A DNA stretch of 64,000 nucleotides from Prochlorococcus marinus str. SB (lineage in GTDB: Bacteria; Cyanobacteriota; Cyanobacteriia; PCC-6307; Cyanobiaceae). The DNA lies in contig NZ_JNAS01000002.1 in NCBI RefSeq assembly GCF_000760115.1, positions 496,001-560,000 on the forward strand, read 5' to 3'. Shown piece after piece: positions 2,817-10,313 of this stretch (its first letter is position 1; each line of letters opens with the position of its first letter). Both the position numbers and the translations under genes were made by a program. The notes below the pieces were generated by a model. That model saw only the letters and a program-made list of their open reading frames with translations, was not told where the DNA came from and did not search any database.

Positions 2817-3176
2817 ATGAAAAAGAAATCTATTATTTATTCTGATTTATCAAAAAAACAACTAGAAACTCTTAAAGAACTTTATATTCAAAAAAAAGTT
2901 GAATCGATGAGTCATCAAGAACTTAAACAATATGTATCAGAAATTATTTCTCATCAGATAAACGATACTATTGGCAAAGAAGAGGAAATGGAAGCATGGA
3001 GAGAAATGTCAGATTTTTTTGGAGAACAATTTGAAATAAATATCTTAGAAATACAAACAAAATATATTGACGATAAAAACGTAATTGAAACCGAAATAGA
3101 TTCTCAGAAGCAAAGAATAGAATTACTTGAAAGGAATAATTTAGATCAAGAGAAAAAGGATATGTGGGATGACTAG
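2817..3176 (+). CDS. Hypothetical acidic/coiled-coil protein, 119 aa
   Basis: Not recognised. The protein is soluble and highly charged, rich in Glu, Lys, Gln and Ile, with no Cys and no membrane segment. Residues about 10-60 (including SHQELKQYVSEIISHQIND) and the C-terminal third look helical, and a coiled coil is likely near residues 85-115. An acidic aromatic stretch (MEAWREMSDFFGEQFE) sits in the middle. It has a good ATG start. It lies between rpaA and the left boundary of the tRNA-Asn islet, so it is probably part of the flank and not of the islet. No function is assigned. Confidence 0.6.
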   Translation: MKKKSIIYSDLSKKQLETLKELYIQKKVESMSHQELKQYVSEIISHQINDTIGKEEEMEAWREMSDFFGEQFEINILEIQTKYIDDKNVIETEIDSQKQRIELLERNNLDQEKKDMWDD

Positions 3177-3264: not shown

Positions 3265-3462
3265 TTGTTCATTTTTGTGAAGAATTTGAAAAATGTTCTA
3301 ATTACTGTTCTTAAACAACAATTTTTAAATTTTCTATTTTCCCTTTATATTATAGTTTTGATTATTTTTAATGTTCTATATACTGTTCTTATTATTGTAT
3401 CAAATATATTTGATTATACCTTCGGCAAACCATTATTTAACAAAAAGGTCCCAAAGAAATAA
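3265..3462 (+). CDS. Possible small membrane protein
   Basis: An open frame of 65 codons encodes a very hydrophobic peptide with a long stretch of Leu/Ile/Phe/Val (residues about 20-48) that could form one or two membrane helices, followed by a basic tail ending KKVPKK. The start is unclear: the frame opens with TTG at 3265 and GTG at 3277, and there is no in-frame ATG or visible ribosome-binding site. In DNA this AT-rich a Phe/Ile-rich frame can arise by chance, so it may not be a gene. Confidence 0.3.
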   Translation: MFIFVKNLKNVLITVLKQQFLNFLFSLYIIVLIIFNVLYTVLIIVSNIFDYTFGKPLFNKKVPKK

Positions 3463-3487
3463 AAAAAAGTCACCATTTTAGGGTGAA
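3461..3487 (-). terminator. Probable rho-independent terminator, leftward
   Basis: Read on the minus strand, the hairpin TCACC-ctaaaat-GGTGA is followed directly by C and a run of at least eight T. On the plus strand the hairpin lacks a T tract, so it acts on leftward transcripts. It sits about 25 bp beyond the relic of a tRNA 3' end at 3511-3533. It may be the original terminator of the tRNA-Asn gene, separated from it when the islet inserted (inference). Confidence 0.5.
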
Positions 3488-3510: not shown

Positions 3511-3533
3511 AACTCCACGGGGGCGGTAGTCGA
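3511..3533 (-). repeat. attL-like relic of a tRNA 3' end
   Basis: A GC-rich patch in very AT-rich DNA. On the minus strand it reads like the T-loop, T-stem and acceptor end of a tRNA (TCGA...CCGCCC...GGAGTT). It matches the tRNA-Asn end at 9516-9536 at 18 of 21 positions plus a 2-nt insertion and has the same orientation. No 5' tRNA half precedes it, so it is not a functional gene. Confidence 0.55.
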
Positions 3534-3594
3534 GGTGATGTTTCCTGAAGGTTTATGAATAAATATGACATAAGAAATTTGCGATTTTGATATA

Positions 3595-3606
3595 TTTCCC
3601 CACCAT
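3595..3606 (+). repeat. Arm-type-like repeat TTTCCCCACCAT, left copy
   Basis: This 12-mer is identical to the copy at 9429-9440 near the other end of the islet. It directly abuts the ATG of the AlpA-like gene (3607). If it binds a recombinase or the AlpA-like protein, binding would mask that gene's start and could autoregulate it (inference). Confidence 0.5.
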
Positions 3607-3798
3607 ATGAACTCAGAAAATCGTCCTTTTATGACCATCAAAGAAGTATCAGAACTTCTTGGGATTTCGGTTTCAACAATTAATAGACTTGTTAAAAGAA
3701 GAGAATTTCCTCCTAAAAGAAAAATATCGCCAGTAAGAATGGTTTTTATGAAATATCAAATTCAAGAATGGATAGATAACAGAAGAAGTGATTGGTAA
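3607..3798 (+). CDS. AlpA/excisionase-type HTH protein
   Basis: A 63-residue protein that is essentially one winged helix-turn-helix. It opens with a short tail, then the MTIKEVSELLGISVSTINRL helix-turn-helix, a basic wing (VKRREFPPKRK), and ends with the helix IQEWIDNRRSDW. This is the architecture of the AlpA/MerR-like phage regulators and recombination directionality factors. Such genes usually lie beside an attachment site, as here: it starts 73 bp inside the left tRNA relic. The start follows a TTTCCCCACCAT repeat and shows no Shine-Dalgarno sequence. It could act as excisionase, as regulator of the large neighbouring gene, or both. The family call is good; the role is inferred. Confidence 0.78.
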   Translation: MNSENRPFMTIKEVSELLGISVSTINRLVKRREFPPKRKISPVRMVFMKYQIQEWIDNRRSDW

Positions 3799-3854
3799 AA
3801 ATCTTAAAACTTAAATAAAAGCAGTAAAAACTCTTAAAATTATTTTTTAAAAAA

Positions 3855-6800
3855 TTAAATCAAATAAGAATTTTCAGATAACGAAATGTCGTCTTCATTA
3901 TAGACAATTGCTAATAAATCTTTGCTGCCATTGTAAATTTTAGAATGTTTGCCAGTATCTACAATTCTTATTGAATTAAAATCAAAACCATCAATATCAA
4001 CTTTATCTTCTCCTTTTTTAAAATCTCTAATTCTGTCATACCCACTTCCGGCAGTTAATTTAAATACATCATTTCCACTACCACCATATAAATCATCTTT
4101 ACCTAAACCTCCAGTTAAAATATCATTTCCATTTTCTCCTTTTAATTTGTCATCACCACTTTCTCCATATAAATAATCTCCATCATCACCTCCTCTAAGG
4201 TAATCATCATCTTCTCCACCATATAAAATATCATCACCAGAATGTCCCTTTAGATAATCATCTCCGGTATCGCCATATAATTGATCTGCACCAGCACCAC
4301 CATAAAGTTTATCGGCACTTGTTCCTCCATGTAATTCATCATCGCCATTACCTCCAGAAAGTCTATCTTTACTACTGCCACCTTCTAAATAATCATCACC
4401 ATCGTTTCCGTATAATTTATCGGCACTGGAATCTCCATATAGTTTGTCATTACCTATACCGCCATAAAGTTTATCGGCGCTTGTTCCTCCATATAATTCA
4501 TCATCGCCATCTTCTCCATAAAGTTCATCACTGCTAGACTCTCCTTTTAATAAATCATTACCTATACCGCCATAAAGTTTGTCAGAACTTGTTCCGCCCC
4601 TTAAATGATCATTACCTTCACCGCCGTAAAGAATATCAGAACTGGAATGTCCTTTTAGATAATCATCTCCCTTATCTCCGTAAAGGGTATCAGAACTAGA
4701 ACCTCCATATAATTTGTCATTATCATCTCCTCCATAAAGTATGTCAGAACTTGTTCCTCCATACAAAGTATCTTCACCTAAACCACCAAATAAAATATCT
4801 TTACCACCATTACCATAAAGAATATCATCACCAATACCTCCATCTAGGGTATTTTTACCACTATTACCTTTTATTGTATTAGCGTGAATATTGCCAGTTC
4901 CATTAATATCGGAAGAACCAGTAAGAGTTAAGTGTAGGTCATTTATATTTAATATCCAGTTGGAAGATGAAAGAATAGGTGATTCATTAAGATCATCAAG
5001 TTCATTCACATTAAAAGTGAATGCTTCTTCGTAAGAAAAACCAGCACTATCTGTTGTTTTTAATCTGATGTTATAAGAGTCTTTGGTTTCATAATCTGGA
5101 GAAGAGTTAATCTTTAAATTGCTTCCATCAATAGTAAATAAAGCATTATCAGTATCACCATCTCCGCTTACTAATGTATAACTATGTGTATCTTCAAGAT
5201 TGGCATCATTTGTTGATAAGTTTGCAACAATAGATCCTGCTTCAATATTTTCATTTATGGTATTACCATTATCGATAAATTTACTCACATATAATTTAGT
5301 ATTATCAAAATTCCCAGTCCCATGCAGAATCTTAATAGATCCGTCTAATCCTGTTGCTAAAACTGCAGCACTATCACCTTCACTAGAACCAAAAAGTTTT
5401 GTCCACTGCTTTTCTCCATCAGCAGAGAATTTACTAATGAAGGCATCAGTAATTCCACTATTGGTTTGACCATCAAGATCACCATACGTATAACCAGTAA
5501 TGTATATTGATCCATCTAATCCTTTTGTTAAGGCATATCCCACATCCTCGTAAGATGTACCTAAAAGTTTTGTCCACTGCTTTTCTCCATCAGCAGAGAA
5601 TTTAGTTATAAATGGATCATTATCACCACTATTGGTTTGACCATCAAGATCACCTGTTGTTTCTCCTGCGATATAAACAGAACCATCTAATCCTGTTGTT
5701 ATCTCAAAGGCATCATCTTCTCCGAGAGATCCAAAGATTTGTGTCCATATTTTTTCTCCATTAACGGATAGTTTACTTATAAATGCAGAGAATCTACTTT
5801 GGGATAGATCCCAGTCATATTGAGCATTATTACTAGGATTGGTTTCTCCATCTATATCTCCCTTAGTAGCACCAACTATATAAATGTAACCATCTGATCC
5901 TATTGTTATCCCTCGCCCCTCATCCTCTTGGTTAGAACCAATTAGTTGTGTCCACTGCTTTTCTCCATCAGCAGAGAATTTATTAATAAAGGCATCGTCA
6001 TAACCATTTCTTGTTTCTCCTGTTATGTAGACAGAACCATCTGGTCCAGTTGTTATTCCCCAGGCATTGTCTTCTCCATAAGTACCAAAAAGTTTTGTCC
6101 ACTGCTTTTCTCCATCAGCAGAGAATTTACTAATAAAGGCATCATCACCACTACTATTATTTTGACCATCTAGATTTCCTTGAGTTCCTCCTGCAATGTA
6201 AACAGAACCATCTGGTCCTGTTGTTATCGACCATACCTCTTCATTTTTGCTTGAACCAATTAGTTGTGTCCACTGCTTTTCTCCATCAGCAGAGAATTTA
6301 CTTATGAAAACATCATCATCACCATTATTAGGTTGACCATCAAGATTTCCTTCAGTTTCTCCTGCAATGTAAACAGAACCATCTGATCCTATTATTCCTG
6401 CTTCGATAAGATCTTTTGGACTATAAGTTTCTAAAAGTTTTGTCCATTCGAATTCAGGTACATTTAAAAAGATATCTTTTGGCGTTTCATCAATTAAATC
6501 ATTAACAGTTAATGTGACTGCTTCTTCATAAGACAATCCTCCACTATCTGTTGTTTTTAAACGAATAATGTAAGAAGACTGGGTTTCATAATCTGGTGAC
6601 GAATTTATCTTTAATTCACTTCCTTCAATGGTAAAAGAATTATTATCGGTATCACCAATTCCACTTACTAACGAATAAGTATGAGTATCAGAAGCATCCT
6701 CATCGGTAGTTGATAATGTTGCAACTGTACTTCCTGCATCTATATTTTCATTAAAACTTCCTGATGATAAAGATATATCTGTTGCTACTTCATTAACGTC

Positions 6801-9221
6801 ATTAACACTGAAAGTAAATGCTTCTTCATAAGACAATCCACCACTATCTGTTGTTTTTAGACGGACAGAATAACTTGATTTTGTCTCATAATCCGGAGAA
6901 GAATTTATCTTTAATTCACTTCCTTCAATAGTAAATAAGGCATTATCTGTATCCCCTGTTCCGCTCGCTAATTCATAAGTATGACTATCAGAAGCATCCT
7001 CATCTGTTGTTGATAATGTTGCAACAACTGACCCAGAACTTATATTTTCATTAAAACTTGTTGATGATGTAGATATATCTGTGGGAGTCTGATCAATTAA
7101 ATCATTGACTCTTAAGGTGACTGCTTCTTCATAAAATAACCCTCCCCTATCAGTTGTTTTTAAGCGAATACTATAAGAAGAGTTATTTTCATAATCCGGT
7201 GAAGAATTTATCTTTAAACTACTTCCTTCAATAGTAAATAAGGAATTATTAGTATCTCCCGCACCACTTACTAAAGAGTAAGTATGGGAATCAGAAGAAT
7301 CGTCATCTGTTGTTGATAATGTTGCAACAACTGACCCAGAACTTATATTTTCATTAAAACTTGTTGATGATAATGATATATCTGTCGCTATTTCATTTAA
7401 ATTCCTCAAATAAAAAGTGAATGCTTCTTCATAAGACAATTCACCACTATCGATTGTTTTTAGACGGACATTATAAGAAGATTGCGTTTCATAATCTGGA
7501 GATATATTAATCTTTAATTGATCACCTTGAATCGTAAAAAGTTCATTATCTTCATCACCTTCTCCACTAACTAATGAATAAGTATGGAAGTCAGAATCAT
7601 CTATATCACTAGTTCTTAAAGTTGTGAAAACTGACTCAGAACTTATATTCTCACTAATTATATATCCCCCTGAATCGAAATCTGTATATATATCTGTTGG
7701 AACTTCATTTATATCATTTACATTAAGAGTAACTTGTTCTTCATAAGATAATCCTCCAAGATCTGTTGTTTTTAAACGAACACTATAAGAGGATTTATTT
7801 TCGTAATCCGGTGATGAATTTATCTTTAAATTACTTCCTTCAATGGTAAAAAAAGCATTATCTGTATCACCAGTTCCACTTATAAATTGATAATTATGCG
7901 AATCGATAAATTCTGGATCAGTTGTTGAGAGTGTGGCAACAACAACGCCAGAGTTTATATGCTCGTTAAAACTTGTCTCAGATAAAAAAATATCAGTGGG
8001 AGCATATGAAAAAGTTAATCTAGCGGCAGCAAAACTCATCCTACTTATAAAAGCATCTAAACCACCATTATTTGTTTGACCATCCAAATCACCATTTGTA
8101 GTACCAGCGATATAAATTGATCCATCACTTCCAGTTGTTAATGCACTCCCATCTTCGTAAAGAGAACTTCCTATAAGCGTTGTCCATTCTCTTTTGCCAT
8201 CAGGATTGAACTTGCTAATAAATGCATCTTGATTATTTGTTTCTGTACGTCCAGCGATATAAATTGATCCATCCAATCCTGTTGTTAATGCATTTGCTGT
8301 ATTAAAGGAGTATGTACCTACAAGTCTGGTCCACTCCTTTGTCCCATCTGGAGAGAATTTACTAATAAATGCATCATTAATTAAATAATTTATTTGACCA
8401 TCAAGATCGCCACTCGTCATGCCAGCAACATAAATGGATCCATCACTTCCTGTTGTTAATGCATTTCCATAATCAATTGTGGCATAACTACCTAACAATC
8501 TATTCCATTGCTTTTCGCCATCTGGAGAGAATTTGCTAATAAAGGCATCTCTTCCTGCGGTATAACCAGCAACATAAATGGATCCATCACTTCCTGTTGT
8601 TAATGCGGAAGCAACGTCATTTATACTCCAACCGACAGAACCGAAAAGTCTGGTCCATTCTTTTGTGCCGTCAGGATGATATTTACTAATAAATCCAGCA
8701 GATGCAACATTCCCTCCATAAGCATTCCCACCATAATTTGTTTGACCATCAAGATCGCCATTCGTCATGCCGGCAACATAAATGGATCCATCACTTCCTG
8801 TTGTTAATGCTCCTAAATCCTCTCTGTAGGATGTGCCTAAAAGTTTGGTCCACTCCTTGGTCCCATCTGGAGAGAATTTGCAAATAAAGGTATCTTGATC
8901 CCCACTATTTATTTGACCATCCAAATCACCACTTGTAGTACCAGCGATATAAATTGATCCATCACTTCCTGTTGTTAATGCTTGTCCATAATCATGTACT
9001 TGTGAACCCAAAAGTCTTGTCCATTCTCTTGTTCCATCAGGATTGAACTTGCTAATAAAAGCATCTTGATCTGAACCATAACTTATTTGATCATCGAGAT
9101 TACCCGCTGTAGATCCAGCAATATAAATAGATCCATCACTTCCAGTTGTTAATGCTCCTACATCCTCTCTGGAGGATGTGCCTAAAAGTCTTACCCATTC
9201 ATAAAAATATTCCGTAGTCAT
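3855..9221 (-). CDS. Giant SBBP/cadherin-like/RTX repeat protein, 1788 aa
   Basis: Modular surface or secreted protein. Residues about 8-395 hold seven beta-propeller (SBBP) repeats built on TGSDGSIYIAG...DAFISKF.PDG...WT.LLG. Residues about 405-910 hold five cadherin-like repeats (FNENISSGSVVATLSTTD...GDTDN.LFTIEG...SPDYE). A second seven-repeat SBBP block spans about 923-1316 and a sixth cadherin-like unit about 1318-1410. About 29 RTX nonapeptides (GGxGxDxLY) span about 1457-1720, followed by a typical RTX C-terminal region. There is no N-terminal signal peptide, consistent with C-terminally directed type I secretion; no T1SS genes are in the window. It fills nearly all of the tRNA-Asn islet, so it is probably acquired. 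Adhesion, grazer or phage defence are guesses; function is unknown. Confidence 0.9.
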   Translation of the reverse strand: MTTEYFYEWVRLLGTSSREDVGALTTGSDGSIYIAGSTAGNLDDQISYGSDQDAFISKFNPDGTREWTRLLGSQVHDYGQALTTGSDGSIYIAGTTSGDLDGQINSGDQDTFICKFSPDGTKEWTKLLGTSYREDLGALTTGSDGSIYVAGMTNGDLDGQTNYGGNAYGGNVASAGFISKYHPDGTKEWTRLFGSVGWSINDVASALTTGSDGSIYVAGYTAGRDAFISKFSPDGEKQWNRLLGSYATIDYGNALTTGSDGSIYVAGMTSGDLDGQINYLINDAFISKFSPDGTKEWTRLVGTYSFNTANALTTGLDGSIYIAGRTETNNQDAFISKFNPDGKREWTTLIGSSLYEDGSALTTGSDGSIYIAGTTNGDLDGQTNNGGLDAFISRMSFAAARLTFSYAPTDIFLSETSFNEHINSGVVVATLSTTDPEFIDSHNYQFISGTGDTDNAFFTIEGSNLKINSSPDYENKSSYSVRLKTTDLGGLSYEEQVTLNVNDINEVPTDIYTDFDSGGYIISENISSESVFTTLRTSDIDDSDFHTYSLVSGEGDEDNELFTIQGDQLKINISPDYETQSSYNVRLKTIDSGELSYEEAFTFYLRNLNEIATDISLSSTSFNENISSGSVVATLSTTDDDSSDSHTYSLVSGAGDTNNSLFTIEGSSLKINSSPDYENNSSYSIRLKTTDRGGLFYEEAVTLRVNDLIDQTPTDISTSSTSFNENISSGSVVATLSTTDEDASDSHTYELASGTGDTDNALFTIEGSELKINSSPDYETKSSYSVRLKTTDSGGLSYEEAFTFSVNDVNEVATDISLSSGSFNENIDAGSTVATLSTTDEDASDTHTYSLVSGIGDTDNNSFTIEGSELKINSSPDYETQSSYIIRLKTTDSGGLSYEEAVTLTVNDLIDETPKDIFLNVPEFEWTKLLETYSPKDLIEAGIIGSDGSVYIAGETEGNLDGQPNNGDDDVFISKFSADGEKQWTQLIGSSKNEEVWSITTGPDGSVYIAGGTQGNLDGQNNSSGDDAFISKFSADGEKQWTKLFGTYGEDNAWGITTGPDGSVYITGETRNGYDDAFINKFSADGEKQWTQLIGSNQEDEGRGITIGSDGYIYIVGATKGDIDGETNPSNNAQYDWDLSQSRFSAFISKLSVNGEKIWTQIFGSLGEDDAFEITTGLDGSVYIAGETTGDLDGQTNSGDNDPFITKFSADGEKQWTKLLGTSYEDVGYALTKGLDGSIYITGYTYGDLDGQTNSGITDAFISKFSADGEKQWTKLFGSSEGDSAAVLATGLDGSIKILHGTGNFDNTKLYVSKFIDNGNTINENIEAGSIVANLSTNDANLEDTHSYTLVSGDGDTDNALFTIDGSNLKINSSPDYETKDSYNIRLKTTDSAGFSYEEAFTFNVNELDDLNESPILSSSNWILNINDLHLTLTGSSDINGTGNIHANTIKGNSGKNTLDGGIGDDILYGNGGKDILFGGLGEDTLYGGTSSDILYGGDDNDKLYGGSSSDTLYGDKGDDYLKGHSSSDILYGGEGNDHLRGGTSSDKLYGGIGNDLLKGESSSDELYGEDGDDELYGGTSADKLYGGIGNDKLYGDSSADKLYGNDGDDYLEGGSSKDRLSGGNGDDELHGGTSADKLYGGAGADQLYGDTGDDYLKGHSGDDILYGGEDDDYLRGGDDGDYLYGESGDDKLKGENGNDILTGGLGKDDLYGGSGNDVFKLTAGSGYDRIRDFKKGEDKVDIDGFDFNSIRIVDTGKHSKIYNGSKDLLAIVYNEDDISLSENSYLI
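4059..4847 (-). repeat. RTX calcium-binding nonapeptide tract
   Basis: About 29 consecutive nonapeptides form a predicted parallel beta-roll. From the fourth to the twentieth unit, canonical repeats such as GGIGNDKLY alternate one-for-one with variants such as GGTSADKLY and GDSSADKLY. After that the tract returns to canonical repeats. Calcium binding by GGxGxDxUx repeats is established for the family; what the Ser/Thr-Ser face does is unknown. Confidence 0.85.
5401..6300 (-). repeat. Five identical 33-bp DNA repeats inside the giant gene
   Basis: Identical 33-bp copies occur at 5401-5433, 5572-5604, 5950-5982, 6097-6129 and 6268-6300. On the minus strand they encode the KFSADGEKQW segment of successive SBBP repeats. 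Such perfect identity among neighbouring repeats implies recent duplication or gene conversion and would permit loss or gain of blades by recombination. Confidence 0.85.
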
Positions 9222-9396
9222 AACAAAAATTTTTTATGAATTTTTAGGTATTTTTCATAAATTGTTCAACATCTTACATCAAAATGATTGTGCTTGCGAT
9301 TTTAATAATTTCTGATTTTATGAATAGTCAGAATTTATACCAAGAACCTTAAAGCATCTAATATCTCTACTCTTACATTTTGTAGTCATACAAATC

Positions 9397-9440
9397 TTCC
9401 CCACCACGAGAATATATCTTCCCCACCATTTCCCCACCAT
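9397..9440 (+). repeat. Arm-type-like repeats, right cluster
   Basis: Three copies of TTCCCCACCA-C/T lie at 9397-9407, 9419-9429 and 9429-9440, the last two back to back. The third is identical over 12 bp to the left copy at 3595-3606. Clustering within 120 bp of the tRNA 3' end fits arm sites of a tRNA-targeting tyrosine recombinase. Confidence 0.5.
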
Positions 9441-9467
9441 TCCCACTTCGCTCAGATTCAAAACAAT

Positions 9468-9491
9468 AAAAAAAGACCATTATTGAAGTCT
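9468..9491 (-). terminator. Weak terminator after tRNA-Asn
   Basis: On the minus strand, a 4-bp stem AGAC/GTCT with a 10-nt loop is followed by a run of T, 27 nt beyond the tRNA 3' end. The stem is short, so this is tentative. Its end (AATGGTC plus T run) resembles the terminator at 3461-3487 beyond the left tRNA relic. Confidence 0.3.
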
Positions 9492-9517
9492 CCTGAAAGT
9501 TAAATCTTAAAATTGAA

Positions 9518-9589
<72 letters not shown>

Positions 9590-9638
9590 ATATAGAATGA
9601 ATTTAGCTCTTTAAAGTCCCTTATGACAAGTACAACGG

Positions 9639-10313
9639 TCAATTATATTGAAATTTTGATGGTTCTTGCCAACTAGATAAAAAACCATTTTTCAACTCTG
9701 CTACTGCATCAGCATAAGTTAATTCTTCATAACGATGAGTAATCCACAAAGCCGATAAAGGTTTTTGATGGTCACTTGTAAGATTTTTAATAGTTTGTAA
9801 AACTTTTAATTGACTAGTTTGATCAAGTAACGCTGTAGGCTCATCTAAAAGAATAAAATTTCTATCACTTATCAGAGCGCTTGCAATAGTTAAGCGTTGT
9901 TTTTGTCCACCGCTCAAAGTATGAACTGGCCTTTTTTCAAAACCAGTCATTCCTACCTGATCAAGTACATATTCAATCTTTTTATTAATTTCATTTTGAC
10001 TTATATTCTGATTAATATTAATCAGAAGTTCACTCCTACAATTTGGCATCAATATTTGATGATCAGGGTTTTGAAACACCATGCCAATATTTGCATTAGA
10101 GTAGATAACACCATTTTTGGGTTTGATTATTCCATTAATTAATTTTAAAAGAGTACTTTTTCCGCTCCCGTTTTTACCCACGACCATCCAAAATCCATGT
10201 TTTTTTATTGATAAATTACATTTAAAAATTAAATTTTCTTTTTCTCCAGGATATGAAAAAGAAACATCTTTGAAGTTAATATGAGGTATTTCATTTTCAA
10301 AGGAATCTAGCAT
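9639..10313 (-). CDS. ABC transporter ATP-binding protein, CbiO/EcfA-like
   Basis: A stand-alone ABC ATPase of 224 residues. It has Walker A GKNGSGKST at 46-54, a Q-loop in GMVFQNPDHQI, signature LSGGQKQRLT near 133, Walker B FILLDEPTALLD near 152 and a switch His in ITHRYEE. The Q-loop and signature resemble the CbiO/EcfA ATPases of energy-coupling-factor (cobalt, nickel or vitamin) importers. No permease gene is adjacent, so the substrate is unknown. It lies 8 bp upstream-side of the UPF0367 gene on the same strand and is probably cotranscribed with it. Confidence 0.82.
   Translation of the reverse strand: MLDSFENEIPHINFKDVSFSYPGEKENLIFKCNLSIKKHGFWMVVGKNGSGKSTLLKLINGIIKPKNGVIYSNANIGMVFQNPDHQILMPNCRSELLININQNISQNEINKKIEYVLDQVGMTGFEKRPVHTLSGGQKQRLTIASALISDRNFILLDEPTALLDQTSQLKVLQTIKNLTSDHQKPLSALWITHRYEELTYADAVAELKNGFLSSWQEPSKFQYN

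Follow-up and report, generated by a model that had tools for sequence, protein, structure and literature searches.

An integrase-less islet at the tRNA-Asn gene of Prochlorococcus marinus SB, probably a satellite element mobilised in trans

Structure of the Islet

An islet of about 6 kb (3512-9516) lies within the 3' end of a tRNA-Asn gene in a 64,000-nucleotide stretch of the Prochlorococcus marinus str. SB genome (contig NZ_JNAS01000002.1, positions 496,001 to 560,000), the whole of which is referred to here as the window. The target of integration, tRNA-Asn (GTT), is located at 9517..9590 on the minus strand and remains complete despite the insertion (ARAGORN), as in tRNA-targeted integrative elements. 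Sequence comparison places the right attachment (att) core, ACTCCCCGGGCG, at 9517..9528 (plus strand) as a part of tRNA-Asn, and the exact core is found once in the window's genome, inside tRNA-Asn itself. The left att core (3512..3525, plus strand) is decayed, and alignment shows ACTCCACGGGGGCG in place of ACTCCCCGGGCG, with one substitution and a 2-nt insertion; this core is intact in G106, G127 and L234. Next to it, the left arm (3526..3574, plus strand) bears a ladder of TGA triplets at +10, +20, +30 and +40 from the core (3536, 3546, 3556 and 3566), followed by a short repeat, or iteron, TTTCCCCACCAT (3595..3606, plus strand), immediately 5' of the alpA start codon. A second left iteron is missing in the window, while G106, G127 and L234 have two copies.

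The first gene of the islet (3607..3798, plus strand) encodes a 63-aa AlpA-like helix-turn-helix protein of the excisionase family, presumed to be a directionality factor; its product matches Pfam HTH_17 and Phage_AlpA above cut-off as well as the excisionase family phrog_66, and passes NCBIfam TIGR01764 excise with 31.5 bits against a cut-off of 28.8. The second gene (3855..9221, minus strand) is the cargo, a 1788-aa protein with SBBP beta-propeller, cadherin and RTX calcium-binding repeats (Pfam). Beyond it lie three right iterons, copies of (A)TCTTCCCCACCA / TTCCCCACCAT (9394..9440, plus strand), a replacement tRNA-Asn terminator carried in by the islet (hairpin and T-run, 9465..9493, minus strand; folding free energy dG -6.7 for 9462-9500), and the right arm adjoining the core, CTCCTGAAAGTTAAATCTTAAAATTGA (9489..9516, plus strand), which recurs unchanged in a 169-bp element of G106 and almost unchanged in L177, L202 and L234. 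A relic of the native tRNA-Asn terminator, again a hairpin with a T-run (3461..3485, minus strand; dG -5.0), is stranded outside the islet. It was recognised by alignment with G029, an empty site in which the sequence matching 3461-3485 comes straight after tRNA-Asn.

Only the AlpA-like gene and the repeat protein gene were found in the islet, with no integrase, by an open reading frame and Pfam scan, which agrees with the initial annotation of the window. PF00589 has no match within the islet and three elsewhere in the genome, and a search of the islet for an integrase fragment found none. The islet also lacks the small serine recombinase found in related integrase-bearing elements (e.g., L119:10492-11097, PF00239). 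The same annotation had reported a direct repeat between a patch at 3511-3533 and the tRNA end at 9516-9536, and realignment gives the same 18 of 21 matches with one 2-nt insertion. Taken alone, this repeat is within chance, as its local score of 21 was equalled or exceeded in 102 of 300 Markov-shuffled versions of the 6.8-kb region; since the window by itself gives no significance, the case was built on comparison between genomes.

Occupied and Empty Sites in the Genus

Two markers of the interval, the ABC ATPase gene (9642-10313) and rpaA (RpaA; 1634-2413), were mapped in another 150 genomes of the genus. Both stood on one contig in the expected order in 101 genomes including the window's, with a gap of 1.0-28.7 kb, and 100 intervals were compared after G088 (too long) was left out. 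In 29 of them the site is empty, with tRNA-Asn directly joined to the native left flank, while 71, the window's included, are filled with about 0.05-22 kb of extra DNA. The nearest genomes by flank DNA identity include the empty G084 (0.959), G007 (0.957) and G029 (0.952), as well as the filled G030 (0.966), which holds a different unit of 1256 bp. The empty sites that the initial annotation had proposed to look for in relatives thus exist, with the tRNA following the same left flank. The window sequence left of the patch can be aligned to the empty site of G029 as far as the core, native terminator relic included.

In filled sites, the 12-bp core ACTCCCCGGGCG occurs both at the tRNA and at the would-be start of the empty site, and it stands equally far from rpaA across filled sites, as is characteristic of integrative elements targeting a tRNA. 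The junction AACTCCCCGGGCGGTAGTCGGGGTGATGTTTC is intact in G106 and G127, which, together with the empty sites, bears out the earlier reading of att-like ends in tRNA-Asn. When up to two core mismatches were allowed, 52 genomes yielded 69 units with a core on either side. As read from the sequence, only some 12 bp are duplicated, namely the acceptor stem and the edge of the T-stem. The initial annotation had described the repeat as T-loop, T-stem and acceptor; the acceptor end and the T-stem edge hold, while the T-loop does not, because the sequence past the core belongs to the element and its likeness to the T-loop (TAGTCGA vs GATTCGA) is therefore fortuitous.

Some filled sites contain tandem units parted by intact cores (L055, L076, L078 and L092), for instance a 185-bp and a 973-bp unit in G102; such arrangements point to repeated insertions at one site.

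Shared Anatomy of the Unit Ends

The unit ends were found to follow a common plan, in which the core is followed by a TGA ladder and, near +80, by 11-bp iterons in tandem; the right end also supplies a replacement terminator for the tRNA. TGA is present at +10, +20, +30 and +40 past the core in 15, 27, 48 and 38 of the 69 units, respectively, and the commonest spacing is exactly 10. Tandem 9-mer pairs starting at about +80 (+80 to +84) occur in 58 of 74 ends, compared with 2.5 expected in shuffles, with a spacing of 11 bp in 47 ends and 12 bp in 11 ends. All 14 units fetched later, outside the first set, have an iteron pair at +79 to +85; among them is L201, an integrase-bearing element already known as G233. 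Left and right iterons are more alike within a unit than between units (permutation p 1e-4), and 59 of 69 units have, near the right core, a terminator-like hairpin in place of the native one. The window retains all four TGA triplets of the ladder, one left iteron and three right iterons, and its own left end does not reach the tandem-pair score because the second left iteron has been lost. Other units carry different iterons, and ACCAGAACGA is an example of an iteron foreign to the window's TTTCCCCACCAT type.

Related Units and Their Cargo

The load between the ends varies widely. Sixteen of the 69 units are only 169-257 bp long and gene-less, yet both cores are kept, and most retain the ladder and iterons. 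The 169-bp gene-less unit of G106 matches the left end of the window over about 100 bp, and on the right its final 60 bp differ from the window only in a few hairpin bases. The left end type of the window also occurs in G127 (1.9 kb; AlpA and an MrcB_N/NOV_C protein) and in L234 (2.8 kb; AlpA and small genes), and its right end in L177, L202 and L234. In L177 (Prochlorococcus AG-349-I11), a gene related to the 1788-aa gene lies beside the matching right end. Further units encode a type ISP restriction-modification protein (G032), helicase/Mrr proteins (G002, G059, G143) or a DNA methylase (G045). Of the 100 intervals, 22 contain AlpA-like genes, and several of these genes have frameshifts or truncations. 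Restriction or other defence-like genes of these kinds lie in the tRNA-Asn units L085, L075, L079, L082, L068 and L062, the type ISP protein being 1612 aa long.

One unit of 0.97 kb, with two small genes and no integrase, shows 94.8-97.5% identity among G001, G004, G063 and G143, while the third codon positions of the flanking rpaA and ABC genes of these genomes are only 66-78% identical. Unit identity exceeds that of both flanks in 18 of 20 whole-length unit pairs; flank identities are underestimated for deeply diverged genomes, as length differences are uncorrected, although G001, G004, G063 and G143 are unaffected. An integrase-less unit of 0.96-1.0 kb in L051, L049, L082, L096, L052 and L045 carries genes of 105 and 60 aa and is near-identical across diverged genomes.

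Integrase-Bearing Elements at tRNA-Asn

Among 71 genomes searched, PF00589 matches inside the rpaA/tRNA-Asn interval only in G082. An integrase homologue overlooked by PF00589 lies in the G050 interval, and a 54-aa remnant in that of G022. An alignment of the G050 and G082 integrases was compared with 266 genomes of the genus, of which 22 contain relatives at E <= 1e-20. The six top scores belong to G050, G082, G021, G110, G184 and G035. The integrases of G050, G082, G021 and G035, and the lower-scoring one of G233, sit in units at tRNA-Asn, while in G110 and G184 the left att is present and the contigs stop before the tRNA. In these elements, referred to below as helpers, an AlpA-like gene is directly upstream of the integrase, G082 excepted. 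The G021 integrase has no Pfam match and matches phrog_1, and the element also encodes a serine resolvase (PF00239). Among the integrase-bearing tRNA-Asn elements L119, L120, L121, L122, L126, L089 and L092, AlpA accompanies a tyrosine recombinase partly missed by Pfam, several have a small serine resolvase, and L121 contains a cluster of large genes resembling a type I restriction system.

Helpers and integrase-less units share their iterons. The TCCCCACCA pairs of helper G021 are those of the window, G106, G127 and L234; TTCCCAACA iterons occur in helpers G110 and G035 and also in G002 and G128; TCCCGACCA iterons in helpers G050 and G184 and also in G131 (one copy variant) and nearly in G042; and ACCAGAACG iterons in helper G233 and also in the integrase-less G048. 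In the integrase-less units, the alpA start codon immediately adjoins the iteron pair, while in helpers alpA begins about 200-400 bp past the iterons. The view of the iteron pairs as a mere alpA operator is not favoured, since the gene-less units and the helpers with a distant alpA keep the core distance; the constant distance in helpers suggests recombination sites rather than an alpA operator alone.

Proposed Mechanism

Taken together, these results make it probable that the window islet is a non-autonomous satellite element, inserted at tRNA-Asn by a tyrosine recombinase and mobilised in trans by a related full-length helper. The initial annotation had listed a satellite or trans-mobilised element among its options, and this is now the best-supported reading, with matching integrase-bearing elements at tRNA-Asn in other genomes. 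It is based on the observed empty site, att duplication, common end anatomy and lack of an integrase, on helpers whose ends match, and on integrase-less units having spread across genomes; from these observations we infer mobilisation in trans and the assignment of proteins to sites. The recombinase of a related full-length element at the same tRNA would serve the islet by binding the iterons as arm-type sites and cutting at the core, and an AlpA-type protein at the ends would shift the reaction towards excision. The excised circle could then re-integrate at tRNA-Asn, where it would restore the acceptor end and supply its own tRNA terminator. The cargo between the ends would be exchangeable, being absent in some units and consisting of restriction enzymes in others or, in the window, of a giant repeat protein. 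With its left core damaged and one left iteron missing, the window copy seems no longer able to move and is probably now stranded.

More broadly, the evidence leans slightly towards a tyrosine-recombinase counterpart of miniature inverted-repeat transposable elements (MITEs) at tRNA-Asn of Prochlorococcus, in which gene-less units of about 170-260 bp, consisting of the core, the 10-bp TGA ladder, 11-bp iterons and a tRNA terminator, would be moved in trans by rare helpers sharing their iterons in a lock-and-key code, cargo islets like that of the window being the same vehicle with a payload. Such a system would provide a specific route for gaining and losing genes on a small scale in a photosynthetic organism that ranks among the most abundant, operating at a single conserved tRNA site that is filled in about 70% of sampled genomes with exchangeable cargo including restriction systems. 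Elements overlooked by integrase-based annotation can be searched for by this end anatomy, and the iteron match predicts which helper moves which satellite.

Alternative Explanations

Several points weigh against mobilisation in trans. Neither an excised circle nor a transfer has been observed, and, given the substitution and 2-nt insertion in its left core, the window copy may be immobile. No helper-type integrase was found in the window's own genome in the search of 266 genomes at E <= 1e-20. A second core was not recognised in 19 filled sites even with two mismatches allowed, and most of the genomes sampled are single-cell assemblies that vary in completeness. Iterons are taken as recombinase sites and the ladder as AlpA sites by analogy only, and the reverse is possible. 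In addition, the spread of integrase-less units could partly come from homologous recombination or transformation.

The islet might instead be a decayed autonomous element, that is, a full-length AlpA-integrase element that entered alone, later lost its integrase by deletion and was never a satellite. An intermediate of such loss is seen in G022, where AlpA is followed by the 54-aa fragment, 68% identical to the G050 integrase, and the frameshifted or truncated AlpA genes and the decayed left core of the window would agree with it. We nevertheless consider it unlikely, as simple decay leaves unexplained both the 16 gene-less units of 169-257 bp, which hold both cores and mostly the ladder and iterons, and the spread of the 0.97-kb integrase-less unit among genomes; the window islet shows no integrase fragment, and the different spacing of alpA in satellites and helpers makes the satellite layout a recurrent form of its own.

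Of the enzymes that could act in trans, the host's own 389-aa tyrosine recombinase (L102:829-1998; G000:C2:131916) has the merit of being widespread, since a PF00589 protein of about 386-399 aa occurs in most of the 71 genomes searched, the window's included. However, this protein is present whether the site is empty or filled, tRNA-Asn is occupied in some genomes by elements that have matching iterons and a specific integrase, and the protein's best NCBIfam match is Xer-type (36 bits, far under cut-off), which suggests that it is possibly a housekeeping enzyme; its role as the mobilising factor is thus highly improbable. The view that the interval is an ordinary, merely fast-evolving native spacer, with a patch resembling tRNA-Asn by chance, could draw only on the insignificance of the repeat by itself, and it is practically refuted by the 29 empty sites, the intact junctions and the short element matching at both ends.

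Comparison with Known Systems

A family of tyrosine integrases in picocyanobacteria has been reported adjoining tRNA-Phe or tRNA-Cys and in the vicinity of a small serine recombinase; the mechanism is called unknown, and the integrases are treated as distinct from those of tycheposons (PMC10187409). By description, the helpers G021, G110, G035 and G050 are like these elements (cluster158946), which belong to marine picocyanobacteria, are tRNA-adjacent, have an integrase poorly matched by standard models and often a small serine recombinase, and carry variable cargo. They differ in target, as the window islet and the helpers use tRNA-Asn, and the text consulted describes no integrase-less satellites, core, ladder or iterons, all of which are present at tRNA-Asn (PMC10187409). 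The elements described there carry an integrase, while the window islet has neither an integrase nor a serine recombinase. The helpers look like the same kind of element at a new target.

Tycheposons, as cited in PMC10872708 and PMC11389934, are Prochlorococcus elements with cargo that sit at tRNA genes, with seven tRNA targets, and some of these elements are called satellites. The window islet shares with that account the Prochlorococcus host, the tRNA site, the cargo and the satellite forms, but it lacks the tyrosine recombinase given there as the tycheposon hallmark. The helpers resemble the elements of PMC10187409 at least as well as tycheposons. No paper on tRNA-Asn islands in Prochlorococcus was found in the literature; the original tycheposon description (Hackl et al. 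2023, doi 10.1016/j.cell.2022.12.006) lies outside this comparison, and novelty is reserved accordingly.

Integrase-less islands beside full ones have been reported at ssrA of Dehalococcoides, where the helpers use a serine recombinase (PMC3146451). With attL and attR and no recombinase gene, the islet has the make-up of a cis-mobilisable element (CIME) or of a satellite mobilisable in trans, although its left core is decayed. The points in common with CIMEs and the Dehalococcoides islands are the att repeats of an RNA gene, the lack of a recombinase and the placement in tandem with or beside full elements (PMC3146451), and the islet differs from them by encoding an AlpA-like protein itself and by its full recombination arms. 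Its relatives at tRNA-Asn include many gene-less mini-elements that stand alone, which argues for mobilisation in trans over accretion. Enzyme-less hitcher elements, namely MITEs and clusters of attC sites lacking integron integrases (CALINs), have been reviewed (PMC11389934), and the tRNA-Asn units resemble them as short enzyme-less units that would use a helper enzyme in trans. However, MITEs use transposases and CALINs integron integrases, while the tRNA-Asn units would use a phage-type tyrosine integrase and have one tRNA target and paired iterons. Capsid, packaging and replication-interference genes are absent from the two-gene islet, which sets it apart from phage satellites of the type of phage-inducible chromosomal islands (PICI).

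AlpA-family excisionases of prophages and islands, such as CP4-57 AlpA, are small helix-turn-helix proteins encoded beside an att site. Unlike this type, the satellite AlpA is found apart from any integrase, and its role in directionality is presumed by analogy.

Additional Observations

When viral contigs were compared with the junction pattern, one match was obtained, in a large open reading frame of a GC-rich phage contig without a tRNA, and it was dismissed as chance. No satellites of the same type were recognised up to 9 kb from any other tRNA of the window's genome. Downstream of tRNA-Pro (L148, G000:C2:1225521-1234694), two long tRNA-Pro-like repeats are located at 2.9 and 7.7 kb, with ends unlike those of the tRNA-Asn units. 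Two further tyrosine recombinases of this genome (L103 and L104) adjoin tRNA-Tyr/Thr and tRNA-Ser. In the native flank of the islet, a direct repeat, AATGTTCTAATTACTGTTCTTA / AATGTTCTATATACTGTTCTTA, is present at 3292-3313 and 3370-3391, 78 bp apart, with similar sequence in several relatives, and a conserved neighbour gene with DUF7326 (2817-3176) is found in the intervals of all genomes examined.

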